DNA from: a virus
Direction: 5' to 3' (one strand)
Virus record (IMG/VR): IMGVR_UViG_3300034374_001006
Span: 1 to 43,764 of that record
Length of the DNA: 43,764 nucleotides
Below are positions 20,435 through 25,419 of the stretch, one piece after another; the first letter of the stretch is position 1, and every line of letters begins with the position of its first letter. The notes under the pieces were generated by a model. The model was given only the letters and a program-made list of their open reading frames with translations. It ran no database searches and was not told where the DNA came from. The translations under genes were made by a program, and so were the position numbers.

Positions 20435-21241
20435 ATGAAATCACCAGCTTGGTTATGTGGGTACGTTGAGTCACTCGACTTCCCTGCGCTGACAAGGTAC
20501 AGATCAGACTGTCCTGTCTGCGGCAAGAAGAATACATTTAGCGTGACGGACGACGGAATGCAACGCCTGTGGTATTGTTTCCACGCTGACTGCAACGTGT
20601 CTGGTCGCACAGGTATCACCCTGACAAAAGAACACGCCGCCCGCACCCTTCGTGGTTCGCAGGCTTTGGGGCCTGCTCCCCGTACTAATAACACTTACGA
20701 GGTGCCCGACACATTTGTCAGTCTTTCTCGTAGCTTAGACGCGGAACTTTATGTTAAACGTGTACAAGCATACGATGCGTATCTGTCGGGCAGGGCTGAC
20801 ATTCGGTACGACTTCAAGCGTAATCGCGCTGTCTTTCTTGTGAAGGATGGCAACAAAGTCGTAGATGCGGCAGGGAGATCAATCGATGGACGAGCGCCTA
20901 AGTGGTATCGCTATGGAAGCAGTAAGCATCCTTTCGTATGTGGGAACGGAAATGCTTGCGCCATTGTTGTTGAAGATTGCAGTTCTGCTTGCTCTGCTAG
21001 TAATATTTGTACGGCAGTAGCTTTATTGGGAACTAATCTTCTTAGCGAACACATCAGCGTATTGAAACAATATGACCGTGTGTTCGTCGCGCTTGACAAG
21101 GATGCCACTGACAAGGCTATTACGATGGTACGTGCGCTGCACACCCACGTGCCGACAAAACTCATGGTTCTTCGAACCGACTTGAAAAACATGCAAAAGG
21201 ACGAACGTGATGACTTCCTACGATCCTACATCGATAGATAA
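20435..21241 (+). CDS. DNA primase (zinc ribbon plus TOPRIM)
   Basis: 268 aa. Makes RNA primers for lagging-strand synthesis. N-terminal zinc ribbon with Cys26, Cys29, Cys48 and Cys53, then a short linker and a TOPRIM domain with Glu180 (CAIVVEDCSSA) and Asp221/Asp223 (FVALDKDATD). Shorter than bacterial DnaG, like the free-standing primase halves of phages whose helicase is a separate gene. AAGGA precedes the ATG. The last 32 bases overlap the helicase gene. Confidence 0.88.
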   Translation: MKSPAWLCGYVESLDFPALTRYRSDCPVCGKKNTFSVTDDGMQRLWYCFHADCNVSGRTGITLTKEHAARTLRGSQALGPAPRTNNTYEVPDTFVSLSRSLDAELYVKRVQAYDAYLSGRADIRYDFKRNRAVFLVKDGNKVVDAAGRSIDGRAPKWYRYGSSKHPFVCGNGNACAIVVEDCSSACSASNICTAVALLGTNLLSEHISVLKQYDRVFVALDKDATDKAITMVRALHTHVPTKLMVLRTDLKNMQKDERDDFLRSYIDR

Positions 21242-22439
21242 ACAGCTACTGGGCTTTTGCCTCAACTCTGAGTTCTTCTCGAATGTGGCCAACACGGTGA
21301 CCCGTGAGATGTTCACGAAAGAGATGCGTGATGTGTTCGACGTGATATCTCACGCGCACACTACCTATGAGAACGACATCACTGTCGGTGAACTCGCCAT
21401 CCTGTTCAATGACCGCAACCCTGCTATGCCGGACTCTACACGAGAACGGGCACAGGAACTGATCGTCACCCTAGAGCAGGGCAATCCACACAACATGGAC
21501 ATGCACCTCGACATGGTGCGTAACTTCTGGCTGCGTGATCGTGCCCGTATCATTGGCGAGAAGGCCATTGAGATATTCACGGGTGAGAGCGAGGACTTCG
21601 GTGAGTTGCGGGCTATGGTCGAGTCTGTCGAGGATGGACGCATGTCTGACCGCACCACCTATGAAGAGGTGACGGACAGTCTCGACGAACTGCTCGACGC
21701 AAACACCGGAGAGCCTGACTTCCCTTTTGAGTTCGGCCTGATCAACGAGCGTGTGGCTGGCCTTGATCGGGGCAACTTGGGTATTATCTTTGCCCGTCCG
21801 GAAGTGGGCAAGACGACATTCTGCTGCTTTCTCGCTGCCTCGTACGTACGGGCCGGACACAAGGTTGTCTACTGGGCAAACGAGGAGCCTGCTGAGAAGA
21901 TCAAGCTGCGCCTCATCCAGTCGTTCTTCAACATCACACGCAAGGAACTCGACGACAATCGTGCCAAGTACACACCGATGTACGAGCGTGACGTGATGCC
22001 GTACCTCAAGGTGATGGCTGCTGTGGGCATGGGCGTCGAGGAAGCTGACGCATACGCAAAGCTGAACAAGCCGGACATCATGTTCATGGATCAGCTTGAC
22101 AAGTTCCGCATATCTGGCGAATACAACCGTGGTGACGAGCGGCTCAAGGAGACGTATGTTCACGCCCGTGAGATTGCCAAGCGCAACAAGATGCTGGTGT
22201 GGGCTGTCAGTCAGGCATCGAACGACGGGCATGATCGCCAGTTCATCGACTACAACATGATGGACAACTCGAAGACCGGCAAGGCTGGCGAGGCTGACAT
22301 CATCATCGGCATTGGCAAGACAGGGGCGAGTGACGTTGAGAACATCGTGCGTCACATCTGCATATCAAAGAACAAGATCAACGGATGGCACGGCCCCATA
22401 AATGCACAGATAGATGTGCAGCGTGGGGTGTACTACTGA
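21210..22439 (+). CDS. DnaB-type replicative helicase
   Basis: 409 aa from ATG 21210 (a GTG directly before it could also be used; AAGGACG is upstream). N-terminal helical region (1-110) as in DnaB, then the RecA-fold domain: Walker A ARPEVGKT at 195-202 and Walker B IMFMDQ at 290-295, with the sensor region WAVSQASNDGHD around 330. Unwinds DNA with the primase. The C-terminus (QRGVYY) and its TGATG junction are repeated downstream at 23020-23040, a sign of recombination. Confidence 0.88.
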   Translation: MTSYDPTSIDKQLLGFCLNSEFFSNVANTVTREMFTKEMRDVFDVISHAHTTYENDITVGELAILFNDRNPAMPDSTRERAQELIVTLEQGNPHNMDMHLDMVRNFWLRDRARIIGEKAIEIFTGESEDFGELRAMVESVEDGRMSDRTTYEEVTDSLDELLDANTGEPDFPFEFGLINERVAGLDRGNLGIIFARPEVGKTTFCCFLAASYVRAGHKVVYWANEEPAEKIKLRLIQSFFNITRKELDDNRAKYTPMYERDVMPYLKVMAAVGMGVEEADAYAKLNKPDIMFMDQLDKFRISGEYNRGDERLKETYVHAREIAKRNKMLVWAVSQASNDGHDRQFIDYNMMDNSKTGKAGEADIIIGIGKTGASDVENIVRHICISKNKINGWHGPINAQIDVQRGVYY

Positions 22440-22864
22440 TGAAGTGGGGGGAAATAGCACCTGACGGCAGAGTATCTATGGGATACCGGCGTGAGAAGAG
22501 GAAGGATGGCACCGTTTATGAAAAGGTAAGGTGGACTTCGCAGGAAGCTTTTGAGCGGCGTAGACTCAGAATTAATCGTAGAAACTCAGACCGAATGAAA
22601 CGGAGAAGACACTGGCTAACTAGATACAAACTCCACAAGGGCTGTGAGAGGTGCGGATACAACGCGCATGGTTGTGCCCTACATTTTGATCACATTGATC
22701 CTTCTAAAAAGAAAGATCAGGTATCTCTGATTATAAAGGGTACGATAAAGAATCTCATACTAGAGGTGAGAAAGTGTCGAGTGCTGTGTGCTAATTGTCA
22801 TGCAGTAAAGACACACGAGGATAGACAAGTAACACGAGGGCAACATGAGCAACCATCAGAATGA
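22439..22864 (+). CDS. HNH endonuclease (probable free-standing homing enzyme)
   Basis: 141 aa, its ATG overlapping the helicase TGA (TGATG). N-terminal half basic (RRLRINRRNSDRMKRRRHWL). HNH domain at about 66-125: CERCG (69-72), the catalytic FDHID with Asp84/His85, NLILEVRKCRVLCANCH with Cys117, Cys120 and His121. Cuts DNA with a metal ion; in phages such enzymes spread by cutting related genomes lacking them. Its presence between helicase and polymerase fits a homing insertion. Base use seems more A-rich than its neighbours. Confidence 0.85.
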   Translation: MKWGEIAPDGRVSMGYRREKRKDGTVYEKVRWTSQEAFERRRLRINRRNSDRMKRRRHWLTRYKLHKGCERCGYNAHGCALHFDHIDPSKKKDQVSLIIKGTIKNLILEVRKCRVLCANCHAVKTHEDRQVTRGQHEQPSE

Positions 22865-22997
22865 AGAGATACTTGAACGCCTCTACGACGAGGAGTACGT
22901 TCGTATACAGAAGCGTTGGCCTATGCTATCAGACGAACACACAGAGAAGTTCGCTGCGTACTTTGCACAGAAGCGGTTCGAGGAGGAGTCAGAATGA
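22845..22997 (+). CDS. 50-aa hypothetical protein upstream of a decoy polymerase start
   Basis: From ATG 22845, preceded by GAGGG, overlapping the HNH end by 20 bases. A charged helical product (begins MSNHQNEEILERLYDEEY, ends AQKRFEEESE). Its TGA overlaps an ATG that begins a copy of the polymerase-exonuclease start, so ancestrally this gene probably sat directly before that gene. Function unknown. Confidence 0.65.
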   Translation: MSNHQNEEILERLYDEEYVRIQKRWPMLSDEHTEKFAAYFAQKRFEEESE

Positions 22998-23038
22998 ACG
23001 TCCTGACCTTTGACGTGCAGTGCGGGGTGTACTACTGA
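22994..23038 (+). other. Chimeric scar: polymerase start fused to helicase end
   Basis: A 14-codon frame, MNVLTFDVQCGVYY-stop. The first eight codons copy the start of the exonuclease gene at 23337 and the last five copy the helicase end at 22425-22439 (GGGGTGTACTACTGATG in both). The fusion falls at GACGTGCAG, a short match to both parents. A relic of illegitimate recombination or of endonuclease insertion. Confidence 0.8.
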
Positions 23039-23340
23039 TGGCTAACACTAACAGAATAGGTGACATTACTGAACTCGACATATGCCATTACTTCTTGGAA
23101 CACGGCTTCGAAGTTTTCAGAAATGTGTCATCTAGTGGGCCTGTTGACTTCGTTACCTTAGACACAAACACAGGCGAGATAACCCTGTATGACAGTAAGA
23201 CGGTAAACCCATACATAAATAAAGATGGTAAATGTGTGGTTCACTTAACAAAATTAAGTGACGTTCAAAAACGCTTGGGTGTTATGCTTGTGGGTAAGTA
23301 TGGTGATACAATAATCACTGGAGAGAAGACAATACTATGA
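23038..23340 (+). CDS. PD-(D/E)xK endonuclease (probable homing type)
   Basis: 100 aa from ATG 23038, overlapping the chimeric frame's TGA; the 18-base longer GTG frame reads through the helicase-copy sequence. Visible nuclease pattern: GDITELDICHYFLEHGFEVF (Glu12), GPVDFV (Asp37), then YDSKT with Asp52 and Lys54. This is the small PD-(D/E)xK fold used by Holliday-junction-resolvase-like and some homing endonucleases. It sits between two copies of the junction, and the polymerase start follows with a 4-base ATGA overlap. A mobile gene is likely. Confidence 0.75.
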   Translation: MANTNRIGDITELDICHYFLEHGFEVFRNVSSSGPVDFVTLDTNTGEITLYDSKTVNPYINKDGKCVVHLTKLSDVQKRLGVMLVGKYGDTIITGEKTIL

Positions 23341-23921
23341 ACGTACTGACATTTGACGTAGAGACAACCCACACGAATAAGCCCAACGGCGGCACGACTG
23401 CGCTGCCTTACTTCGGAAACCGCCTCGTGTCGATAGGCTACAAGTGGCTGGGTGAAGACAACGTGTTTTATCACTGTTACTATCACGAGACTGAGCCACC
23501 TACACCTAACGCAGCGCACAGCTTTCAGGTTGCACTCAACTGCGCCGATGTGGTCTTGGGCCAGAACATCAAGTTTGACTTGCAGTGGATACGTGACTGC
23601 GGGTTCATATACAAGGGAGACATCTATGATACTATGGTTGCGGAGTATGTTTTATCAAAAGCGAGACGCTGGCCTCTTGGACTTGCTGCTCTTGCAAAAA
23701 AGTATGACACAGTGCAAAAGGAGAAGGACCTTGTTCAGCCGTATCTGGACGGGGGCAAGACGTTCTACGAGATACCGTGGGAGATAGTACGAGAGTATGG
23801 CATTGCTGACGTGATAAGCACGGAGCAAGTAGCCCTGAAACAACTGGATGCCTTTGGCACTACATTCGAGGACTTATACAATGACGAACGATCTACTGCC
23901 GACACTGCGCTTGTCGTTTGA
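23337..23921 (+). CDS. 3'-5' exonuclease subunit of split family A DNA polymerase
   Basis: 194 aa, proofreading. DEDD-type residues: Asp7 and Glu9 (FDVET), Asp81 (GQNIKFDLQW), and Tyr154xxxAsp158 (YGIAD). This corresponds to the N-terminal exonuclease of PolA-type polymerases, but the frame ends after a short unrelated tail (ERSTADTALVV) in the polymerase overlap. The polymerase starts 41 bases before this stop with its own ribosome site, so the enzyme appears to be made as two chains. Start context repeats at 22994. Confidence 0.85.
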   Translation: MNVLTFDVETTHTNKPNGGTTALPYFGNRLVSIGYKWLGEDNVFYHCYYHETEPPTPNAAHSFQVALNCADVVLGQNIKFDLQWIRDCGFIYKGDIYDTMVAEYVLSKARRWPLGLAALAKKYDTVQKEKDLVQPYLDGGKTFYEIPWEIVREYGIADVISTEQVALKQLDAFGTTFEDLYNDERSTADTALVV

Positions 23922-25419
23922 AATGGCCGACACACTGGCCCGCATCGAACGCAACGGATTGCGGGTCAACCTAGATACACTACAAGAGATTGAGAAGCAG
24001 TACCAAGAGGAACTCGACGCACTCGAACTGCGCCTCAACGAGATGGCACGTGAGGCTATGGGTGACACGCCCATCAGTCTGACCAGCCCAGACGACAGGT
24101 CGATGCTTCTCTACTCTCGTAAGGTAAGAGACAAGAAGGCGTGGTCACAGATGTTCAACTTGGGTATGGAGCGTCGTGGTGCCACGATGAAGCCTAAGCA
24201 GCGCACACGCATGTCAGGCAAGGACTTCCGCCTCGCTGTACGCAACAACACGGATGTCGTATATAAGACAATTGGTGAGCAGTGCCGCACCTGTGTCGGA
24301 TTCGGCAAAGTTCGACCTGTACGCAAGGACGGCACACCAAGCAAGGCTCTGCGTATCTGTAAGACATGCGGCGGCAAGGGTGTGGTCTATCGCCCGACAA
24401 GTGAGGTGGCAGGCTTCAAGATCGTACCGCGCAACGTGCGTGACGTGGCATCTGCTGGCTTCAAGACGGACAAGGACACACTGGCTGAACGCGAACTCGA
24501 ACTGTCGGGTCCGGCCCGTGAGTTTGCATCGTCTTACGTGCGCTACAATGCGTTGCGTATGTATTTGGGAACCTTCGTAGAGGGGATGAAAAACAATGTC
24601 GATGACTACGGAATCGTACATCCGGAATTTATGCAGTGTGTTACGGCGACGGGTCGCCTTTCGTCTCGTAACCCGAACTTTCAGAATATGCCACGTGGTA
24701 ATACCTTCGAGATACGCAAGGTTGTCGAGAGTCGCTTTGAGGACGGCAAGATCATTGAGGGCGACTACTCGCAACTCGAATTCAGAGTCGCAGGATTTCT
24801 AGCCAATGATCAGCAGGCGTACGATGATGTGCGTATCGGGACTGACGTACACAGCTACACTGCTGGTGTCATAGGCTGCTCACGTCAAGAAGCGAAGGCT
24901 CACACCTTCAAGCCTCTCTATGGTGGCACTACGGGCACAGAGGCCCAGCAACGCTACTACAGGGCCTTCAAGGAGAAGTATGGGGGTGTATCCCTCTGGC
25001 ATGAAGACTTGCAGCGAGAGGCCGTTGAGAAGCGCGTAGTGACGCTTCCGTCTGGCAGGCAGTATGCTTTCCCTGATGCGCGGTGGACAAAGTACGGCAC
25101 GGCTACACACAGGACAAACATATGCAACTATCCTGTGCAGGGGTTCGCAACCGCCGACCTCTTGCCCGCTGCCCTCGTTCGCCTCGACAGCCTGTTCATA
25201 GAAAACAAACTACAGTCTGTGATATGCAACACGGTCCACGACTCGATTGTAATTGACTGTCACCCAGATGAAAAAATCATTTGCGTCAAGCTGATGCGGG
25301 ATGCTATGCTCTCTCTACCTGAAGAGACGATACGACGCTATGGTGTCGAGTATGACATGCCCGTCGAGATTGAGATAAAAATGGGCGATAACTGGCTTGA
25401 CTTGCACGTCGTAGAGTAG
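23881..25419 (+). CDS. Family A DNA polymerase with inserted CxxCxGxG zinc motif
   Basis: 512 aa from ATG 23881, with GAGGA 8 bases upstream inside the exonuclease gene. Polymerase motifs: TATGRLSSRNPNFQNMP (256-271), motif A DYSQLE (295-300), motif B RQEAKAHTFKPLYGG (335-349) and motif C VHDS (452-455). Residues 135-166 carry Cys135, Cys138, Cys160 and Cys163 as CxxCxGFG and CxxCGGKG, a DnaJ-type zinc pattern inserted before the palm. Polymerases with a DnaJ-like central domain were described for SAR116 phage HMO-2011, as I recall. Function of the insert is unknown; it might bind a processivity partner. Confidence 0.9.
   Translation: MTNDLLPTLRLSFEMADTLARIERNGLRVNLDTLQEIEKQYQEELDALELRLNEMAREAMGDTPISLTSPDDRSMLLYSRKVRDKKAWSQMFNLGMERRGATMKPKQRTRMSGKDFRLAVRNNTDVVYKTIGEQCRTCVGFGKVRPVRKDGTPSKALRICKTCGGKGVVYRPTSEVAGFKIVPRNVRDVASAGFKTDKDTLAERELELSGPAREFASSYVRYNALRMYLGTFVEGMKNNVDDYGIVHPEFMQCVTATGRLSSRNPNFQNMPRGNTFEIRKVVESRFEDGKIIEGDYSQLEFRVAGFLANDQQAYDDVRIGTDVHSYTAGVIGCSRQEAKAHTFKPLYGGTTGTEAQQRYYRAFKEKYGGVSLWHEDLQREAVEKRVVTLPSGRQYAFPDARWTKYGTATHRTNICNYPVQGFATADLLPAALVRLDSLFIENKLQSVICNTVHDSIVIDCHPDEKIICVKLMRDAMLSLPEETIRRYGVEYDMPVEIEIKMGDNWLDLHVVE

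Follow-up and report, generated by a model that had tools for sequence, protein, structure and literature searches.

The stretch analysed in this work is the virus record IMGVR_UViG_3300034374_001006 from IMG/VR, which contains 43,764 nucleotides (nt) and is hereafter referred to as the window. Between the genes coding for its DnaB-like replicative helicase and its family A DNA polymerase there are several small genes, including one for a PD-(D/E)xK endonuclease, and directly 5′ of the latter lies a 45-base open frame in which an exonuclease start is fused to a helicase end, hereafter called the scar. Relatives compared with the window are designated by L-numbers (L005, L080 etc.), and lengths of proteins are given in amino acids (aa). 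The features of the junction are:

21207–22439, plus strand: DnaB-like replicative helicase (PF03796, phrog_19)
22439–22864, plus strand: HNH endonuclease gene, 141 aa (PF01844 with E = 0.00095, below the gathering score; phrog_3106 with E = 4e-25)
22845–22997, plus strand: 50-aa gene (p50), resident in the clade (phrog_9309)
22994–23038, plus strand: chimeric scar frame MNVLTFDVQCGVYY with its stop, a putative recipient exonuclease start joined in frame to a putative donor helicase end
23010–23017, plus strand: microhomology at the joint, TTGACGTG, from comparison with exonuclease starts and helicase ends of relatives
23018–23037, plus strand: putative donor helicase tail within the scar, supplying the GGGG stretch and the TGATG stop-start overlap before the endonuclease
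23038–23340, plus strand: PD-(D/E)xK endonuclease gene, 100 aa (E12, D37 and D52-x-K54 in all 10 aligned relatives; predicted fold)
23337–23921, plus strand: 3′–5′ exonuclease part of the family A DNA polymerase, from its true start (PF01612, phrog_17)
23337–23538, plus strand: apparently imported first ~202 nt of the exonuclease (divergence contrast with the sibling L080)
23848–25419, plus strand: polymerase part of DNA polymerase A, sibling-like background (PF00476; two CXXCXGXG motifs)

The 50-aa gene, the scar, the PD-(D/E)xK gene and the exonuclease gene are chained by overlapping stop and start codons, with the stop of the 50-aa gene overlapping the ATG of the scar. An initial annotation, made from the letters of the window alone, had described this succession, including the HNH gene upstream and the 50-aa gene fitting directly before the copied start, and it was found as described.

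The chimeric frame

The scar is read directly from the sequence as ATGAACGTCCTGACCTTTGACGTGCAGTGCGGGGTGTACTACTGA, that is 14 codons and a stop coding for the peptide MNVLTFDVQCGVYY. Its first 23 bases differ from the exonuclease start at 23337 in two positions (21/23), and 17 bases at 23024–23040 are identical to the helicase end. The initial annotation had recognized the fusion, the two changes and the length of the identity correctly, the helicase copy being located at 22425–22441 instead of 22424–22440. It is a sequence of the type of the last ~27 nt of the helicase gene, coding for DVQRGVYY and ending in a stop within TGATG, that has been copied into the scar. In local comparisons the interval scores 27 against helicase ends and 25 against exonuclease starts, with shuffles of the same interval scoring at most 16. 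The GAGGAGG sequence is kept upstream of the scar ATG, and there are stop-start overlaps at both ends of the scar.

The joint sequence TTGACGT(G) at 23010–23016/17 comprises 7–8 nt common to the exonuclease start of the siblings and the helicase end of L106, and with the helicase end of L139 the microhomology is 6 nt long. An overlap of at least 6 nt has a frequency of about 0.002 (0.2%) in random joins between these sequences. The microhomology proposed initially, GACGTGCAG, did not hold as given, because its CAG is present on the helicase side only, the exonuclease having GAG at this place. Both copies of the microhomology encode Asp-Val in the same frame, which is why the scar frame stays open and the stop-start chain intact.

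A degenerate pattern for the fusion of an exonuclease start with a helicase end was run against 2.9 million IMG/VR viral contigs. The matches were four further contigs from other metagenomes, each with the identical scar and with 6–25 mismatches to the window over 9–15 kb (one of them also with gaps), and no scar was found in this collection beyond this one near-identical group. Because the scar is identical in these contigs despite flanking differences, five assemblies in all, it is not an assembly artefact; it is present in natural phages and stably maintained in a population. None of the other occupied junctions collected contains a comparable remnant of either gene.

Junctions of relatives and ancestry of the scar

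The junctions collected comprise about 70 distinct haplotypes. Of these, 16 are empty, while the occupied ones contain, in various combinations, the 50-aa gene, HNH genes of long or short type, PD-(D/E)xK genes and further small frames, nearly all inserted genes beginning on the stop of the gene upstream. The helicase gene and the DNA polymerase (exonuclease) gene are stop-start-coupled, and the site between them is a gene-insertion hotspot. The recipient and donor arrangements inferred in the initial annotation are both present among the relatives, as are junctions devoid of one or both endonucleases. The donor arrangement, with helicase, PD-(D/E)xK gene and exonuclease in direct succession, was found in three lineages (L005, L006 and L007), the endonuclease gene extending from the helicase TGATG to the exonuclease ATG. 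Among the closest relatives of the window, L008 and L013–L015 have the 50-aa gene alone between helicase and exonuclease, and L009, L060 and L070 have a short HNH gene followed by the 50-aa gene; L019 possesses a full-length HNH gene together with the 50-aa gene.

The left 23 bases of the scar are identical to the exonuclease start of L009 and L081 (23/23), siblings without the PD-(D/E)xK gene, compared to 21/23 for the window's own copy, and the right part matches the helicase end of another lineage, represented by L106 and L027, in 26 of 27 positions, compared to 24/27 for the window's own helicase. These counts support a different ancestry of the two halves, as supposed initially, each half appearing nearer to other phages than to its own genome.

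The exonuclease start following the endonuclease gene also differs from the rest of the polymerase. Compared to L080, the window has 24 differences in the first 206 nt and only nine in the next 1844 (Fisher p = 5.5e-18), and compared to L070 the values are 25/206 and 6/1844, whereas the closest sibling control pairs have no excess in the first 206 nt (e.g., 8/206 vs. 71/1844 for L080 and L084). The contrast shows the first ~202 nt to be, by all appearances, a foreign tract imported together with the endonuclease gene and ending near 23538, in agreement with the initial proposal that the polymerase start had been replaced. In the tree built from positions 207–2050 the window groups with L070 and L080 (100/99), and in that from positions 1–206 it is placed outside the five-member sibling set (86/95).

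The HNH gene of the window is ~88% identical at the nucleotide level to the copies in L154 and L155, and such genes are present or absent among the relatives. The 50-aa gene downstream differs from that of L081 in 10 of 75 positions in its first half (22845–22919) and in only 2 of 75 in its second half. This suggests that the HNH gene may have arrived independently and earlier with its own downstream flank, namely a part of the 50-aa gene, and that the second half of this gene, like the exonuclease start found as a copy in the scar, was probably resident before the scar was formed. A similar start of the 50-aa gene is located beside the same short HNH gene in the L009-type phages and in L033. 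In the HNH gene of L095 there is a 22-base stretch, GATGTGGATACAACGCACACGG, matching the exonuclease start in 20 of 22 positions (19/22 in L155), a likeness which is probably due to chance but may possibly serve as a lead on target recognition.

Proposed history of the junction

It is quite likely that a donor piece entered the recipient by a one-sided illegitimate join, homologous on the right and mediated by microhomology on the left, following a putative break made by the donor endonuclease. The recipient would have had the order helicase, (HNH gene), 50-aa gene, exonuclease, and the donor phage the order helicase, PD-(D/E)xK gene, exonuclease. In a mixed infection the donor endonuclease would make a double-strand break in the exonuclease start of the recipient, and the recipient would receive a copy of a donor stretch made up of ~20–30 nt of helicase tail, the endonuclease gene of 303 nt and the initial ~200 nt of the exonuclease. 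The right-hand exchange would have taken place by homology near 23538, within the exonuclease gene. On the left side, the HNH and 50-aa genes separate the matching helicase tail from this place by ~550 nt, and for this reason the join would have been made at the 6–8 nt microhomology TTGACGTG, between codons 6–8 of the recipient exonuclease and the donor helicase tail, giving the chimeric 14-codon frame as the product. The arrangements, the ancestry of the scar halves, the imported tract, the microhomology and the existence of the scar were all observed in the sequences compared, and two marks of one-sided illegitimate homing were found, namely homologous exchange at one end and a join over microhomology at the other. 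The recombination proposed in the initial annotation is supported and essentially right in its main points.

Several observations weigh against this history. The evidence from the helicase half of the scar amounts to 27 nt. In the approximately unbiased (AU) test of the 206-nt tract alone, the grouping of the window with the siblings was not significantly rejected (p = 0.18), and it is therefore the rate contrast that carries the argument for import. Two DNA patterns specific to the tract, used to look for the donor, matched nothing but the scar-bearing contigs; the donor itself has thus not been sampled. The stacked insertions in L131, L119, L089 and L147 are joined cleanly at start codons, a scar not being the usual outcome. 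Finally, an identical sequence would result from ordinary phage recombination or template switching without any cut. The join would be accounted for by strand annealing or by a template switch in the course of replication, with the endonuclease as a passenger whose cutting plays no role, as microhomology joins need no specific cut and small non-nuclease genes (frames of 50, 69, 37 and ~100 aa) also come and go at this junction. The imported tract is, however, centred on an endonuclease gene with conserved catalytic residues, and the endonuclease family recurs independently at the junction (L005, L006 and L007, L034, L119, L131, L182, L183) and at other sites, and a passenger role is considered less likely.

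The same scar is also predicted if the resident phage had the order helicase, PD-(D/E)xK gene, exonuclease and a piece consisting of the HNH gene, the 50-aa gene and an exonuclease start came from a second phage, with a homologous join in the helicase and an illegitimate one at the helicase tail before the endonuclease. The HNH gene is mobile here as well, and that of the window differs from those of its nearest siblings. Such an order of events would, however, require that the 50-aa gene, found in almost every close relative, had first been lost and then regained, and that the exonuclease tract had been imported separately and earlier. The half-by-half divergence of the 50-aa gene argues against it too, as its second half and the exonuclease start of the scar (0/23) are sibling-like, as expected of residents, and its first half is not; this course of events is considered improbable. 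A duplication within the genome, with the helicase end and the exonuclease start both copied from the phage's own genes, is suggested by the resemblance of both pieces to genes of the same genome, but it was rejected as very improbable since both halves are nearer to other phages and the window's own exonuclease start is a foreign tract. It is equally hard to regard the 45-base frame as an assembly artefact or as a conserved micro-gene with a function of its own. A micro-gene would be consistent with the open frame, the good upstream GAGGAGG and the stop-start overlaps on both sides, but the frame was found in a single near-identical group, no divergent homologues of its 14 residues were found, and the agreement of five differing assemblies speaks against an artefact, so that both were rejected. 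The initial annotation had named an ancient conserved gene as the result that would count against recombination, which the four near-identical contigs of the IMG/VR scan do not bear out. Its second such result, a lack of relatives without the endonucleases, is likewise not borne out, junctions without one or both of them being numerous.

Entry of the donor piece by a one-sided illegitimate join may also be a general way in which genes pile up at the helicase–polymerase junction, though this extension is tentative and we would not favour it at present. In general, cassettes would enter by homology in the polymerase start on the right and over a few bases, usually the start codon, on the left, and the window's scar would be the only instance in which the left join fell elsewhere than at the start codon, so that the intermediate can still be read.

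On the basis of laboratory crosses, one-sided illegitimate homing has been suggested as the route of homing elements to new sites. Parker, Belisle and Belfort reportedly described it in 1999 for the td group I intron of T4. According to the account of that work given in PMC2988022 (citing Parker et al. 1999), T4 td intron crosses with one-sided homology led to illegitimate repair with microhomology junctions. The case described here is similar in having extensive homology on one side, a microhomology junction on the other and mobile DNA which brings its flanks. It differs from the engineered td crosses and their characterised endonuclease in that it concerns a free-standing gene in wild phages, that the cut would be a deduced one and that the direction of the two sides is read from relatives. 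As with the T4 enzymes SegA–G and MobA–E and with intronless homing, the nuclease genes are located between conserved genes, are present or absent, and are associated with co-conversion of neighbours. The T4 enzymes are, however, of the GIY-YIG or HNH type, whereas PD-(D/E)xK and HNH genes are found here in an HMO-2011-like marine phage, with a stop-start-coupled insertion and a chimeric scar that set it apart from the free-standing T4 homing endonucleases. The segmental amplification involving SegB and tRNA genes in phage T6 (PMC13096335) likewise ties a free-standing homing endonuclease to a microhomology rearrangement, but there it is a tandem amplification under selection and here the acquisition of a gene that left a chimeric scar.

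Literature searches, which covered open-access publications, returned no report of such a scar. As far as these searches show, events of this kind are known from laboratory work, while a natural readable case, with a free-standing PD-(D/E)xK gene and a polymerase–helicase hotspot, is undescribed. In this natural case, comparison with wild relatives reveals the types of recipient and donor as well as the two halves of the scar and the imported tract. The case provides a testable path along which nuclease and small cargo genes may accumulate beside essential replication genes, and it confines the likely site of the putative cut to the initial ~200 nt of the polymerase gene.

The PD-(D/E)xK family and neighbouring genes

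The endonuclease gene is free-standing between conserved genes, outside any intron or intein, and in its close carriers it extends from the TGATG of the helicase or scar to the ATGA of the exonuclease. Both its presence or absence at the orthologous site and the co-conversion of its flanks were observed, and it behaves as a mobile gene. The catalytic residues E12, D37, D52 and K54 are invariant in the alignment. Weak matches to PF11645 (PDDEXK_5) were obtained for family members (E = 0.0002 for gp36 of P60 and 0.08–0.17 for others) but not for the window's own copy, and a sequence profile search of PDB with the family gave no credible match. The predicted fold has a mean confidence (pLDDT) of 76, and its best Foldseek matches are Hjc and I-Ssp6803I (E 0.0016–0.02, probability 0.99–1.00), with moderate Z values of 5.5–6.4 in structure comparison (VIA). 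The fold and the E, D, D-x-K pattern are shared with PF11645 and with I-Ssp6803I, a PD-(D/E)xK intron homing endonuclease (PDB 2ost), although the window protein has 100 aa, is free-standing and shows marginal sequence similarity, and Hjc resolvases score as well or better. Judging by these features, the gene is predicted to encode a free-standing phage homing endonuclease with putative cleavage activity.

At the helicase–polymerase junction, members of the family are also located after an HNH gene (L131, L182, L183), after the 50-aa gene (L119, L121) and after the helicase (L034). Elsewhere, they are found upstream of the primase gene in L188–L198, the annotated cases lying between DUF932 and integrase genes, and next to a tail fibre gene in phage P60. 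No family members were detected in bacterial and archaeal genomes. Exonuclease-start positions common to all carriers, considered as marks of a resistant target site, gave weak candidates only, e.g., +24 A, which are not significant with four lineages. In L188 (2159–4177), and similarly in L189, which belong to another clade of related phages, the PD-(D/E)xK gene with its stop-start overlaps beside DUF932 and integrase genes represents a second insertion site.

The other stacked insertions, in L131, L182, L183, L119, L121, L089 and L147, are joined cleanly at start codons, with a few bases in common, and the gene carried by both L119 and L121 has ATG and GTG starts. In L096 and L091 a frame of ~150 aa of unknown function is located between the 50-aa gene and the exonuclease; by eye, it resembles a 100-aa gene occupying this place in the cultured phage CRP-235.

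A DNA-level search of cultured phages gave no match. As judged by its replication genes, which include a primase, the window resembles HMO-2011-type marine phages, and among these (PMC9038755) CRP-235 and CRP-738 likewise have small genes between helicase and polymerase; no scar is described there, and the window differs in that its polymerase consists of two overlapping frames. In the cultured phages HTVC033P and CRP-212 the helicase directly precedes the polymerase. The latter is encoded there by one fused gene, whereas in the window (23337–25419) and in all relatives collected the exonuclease and polymerase frames overlap in different reading frames. The two motifs of the polymerase frame read CRTCVGFG and CKTCGGKG, with a PF00684 score of 19.1 bits, below the gathering score. 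Upstream, a stretch of the primase gene (20834–21034) differs from close relatives in about 16–43 positions per 100 nt, far above the helicase just downstream, and constitutes another mosaic boundary.
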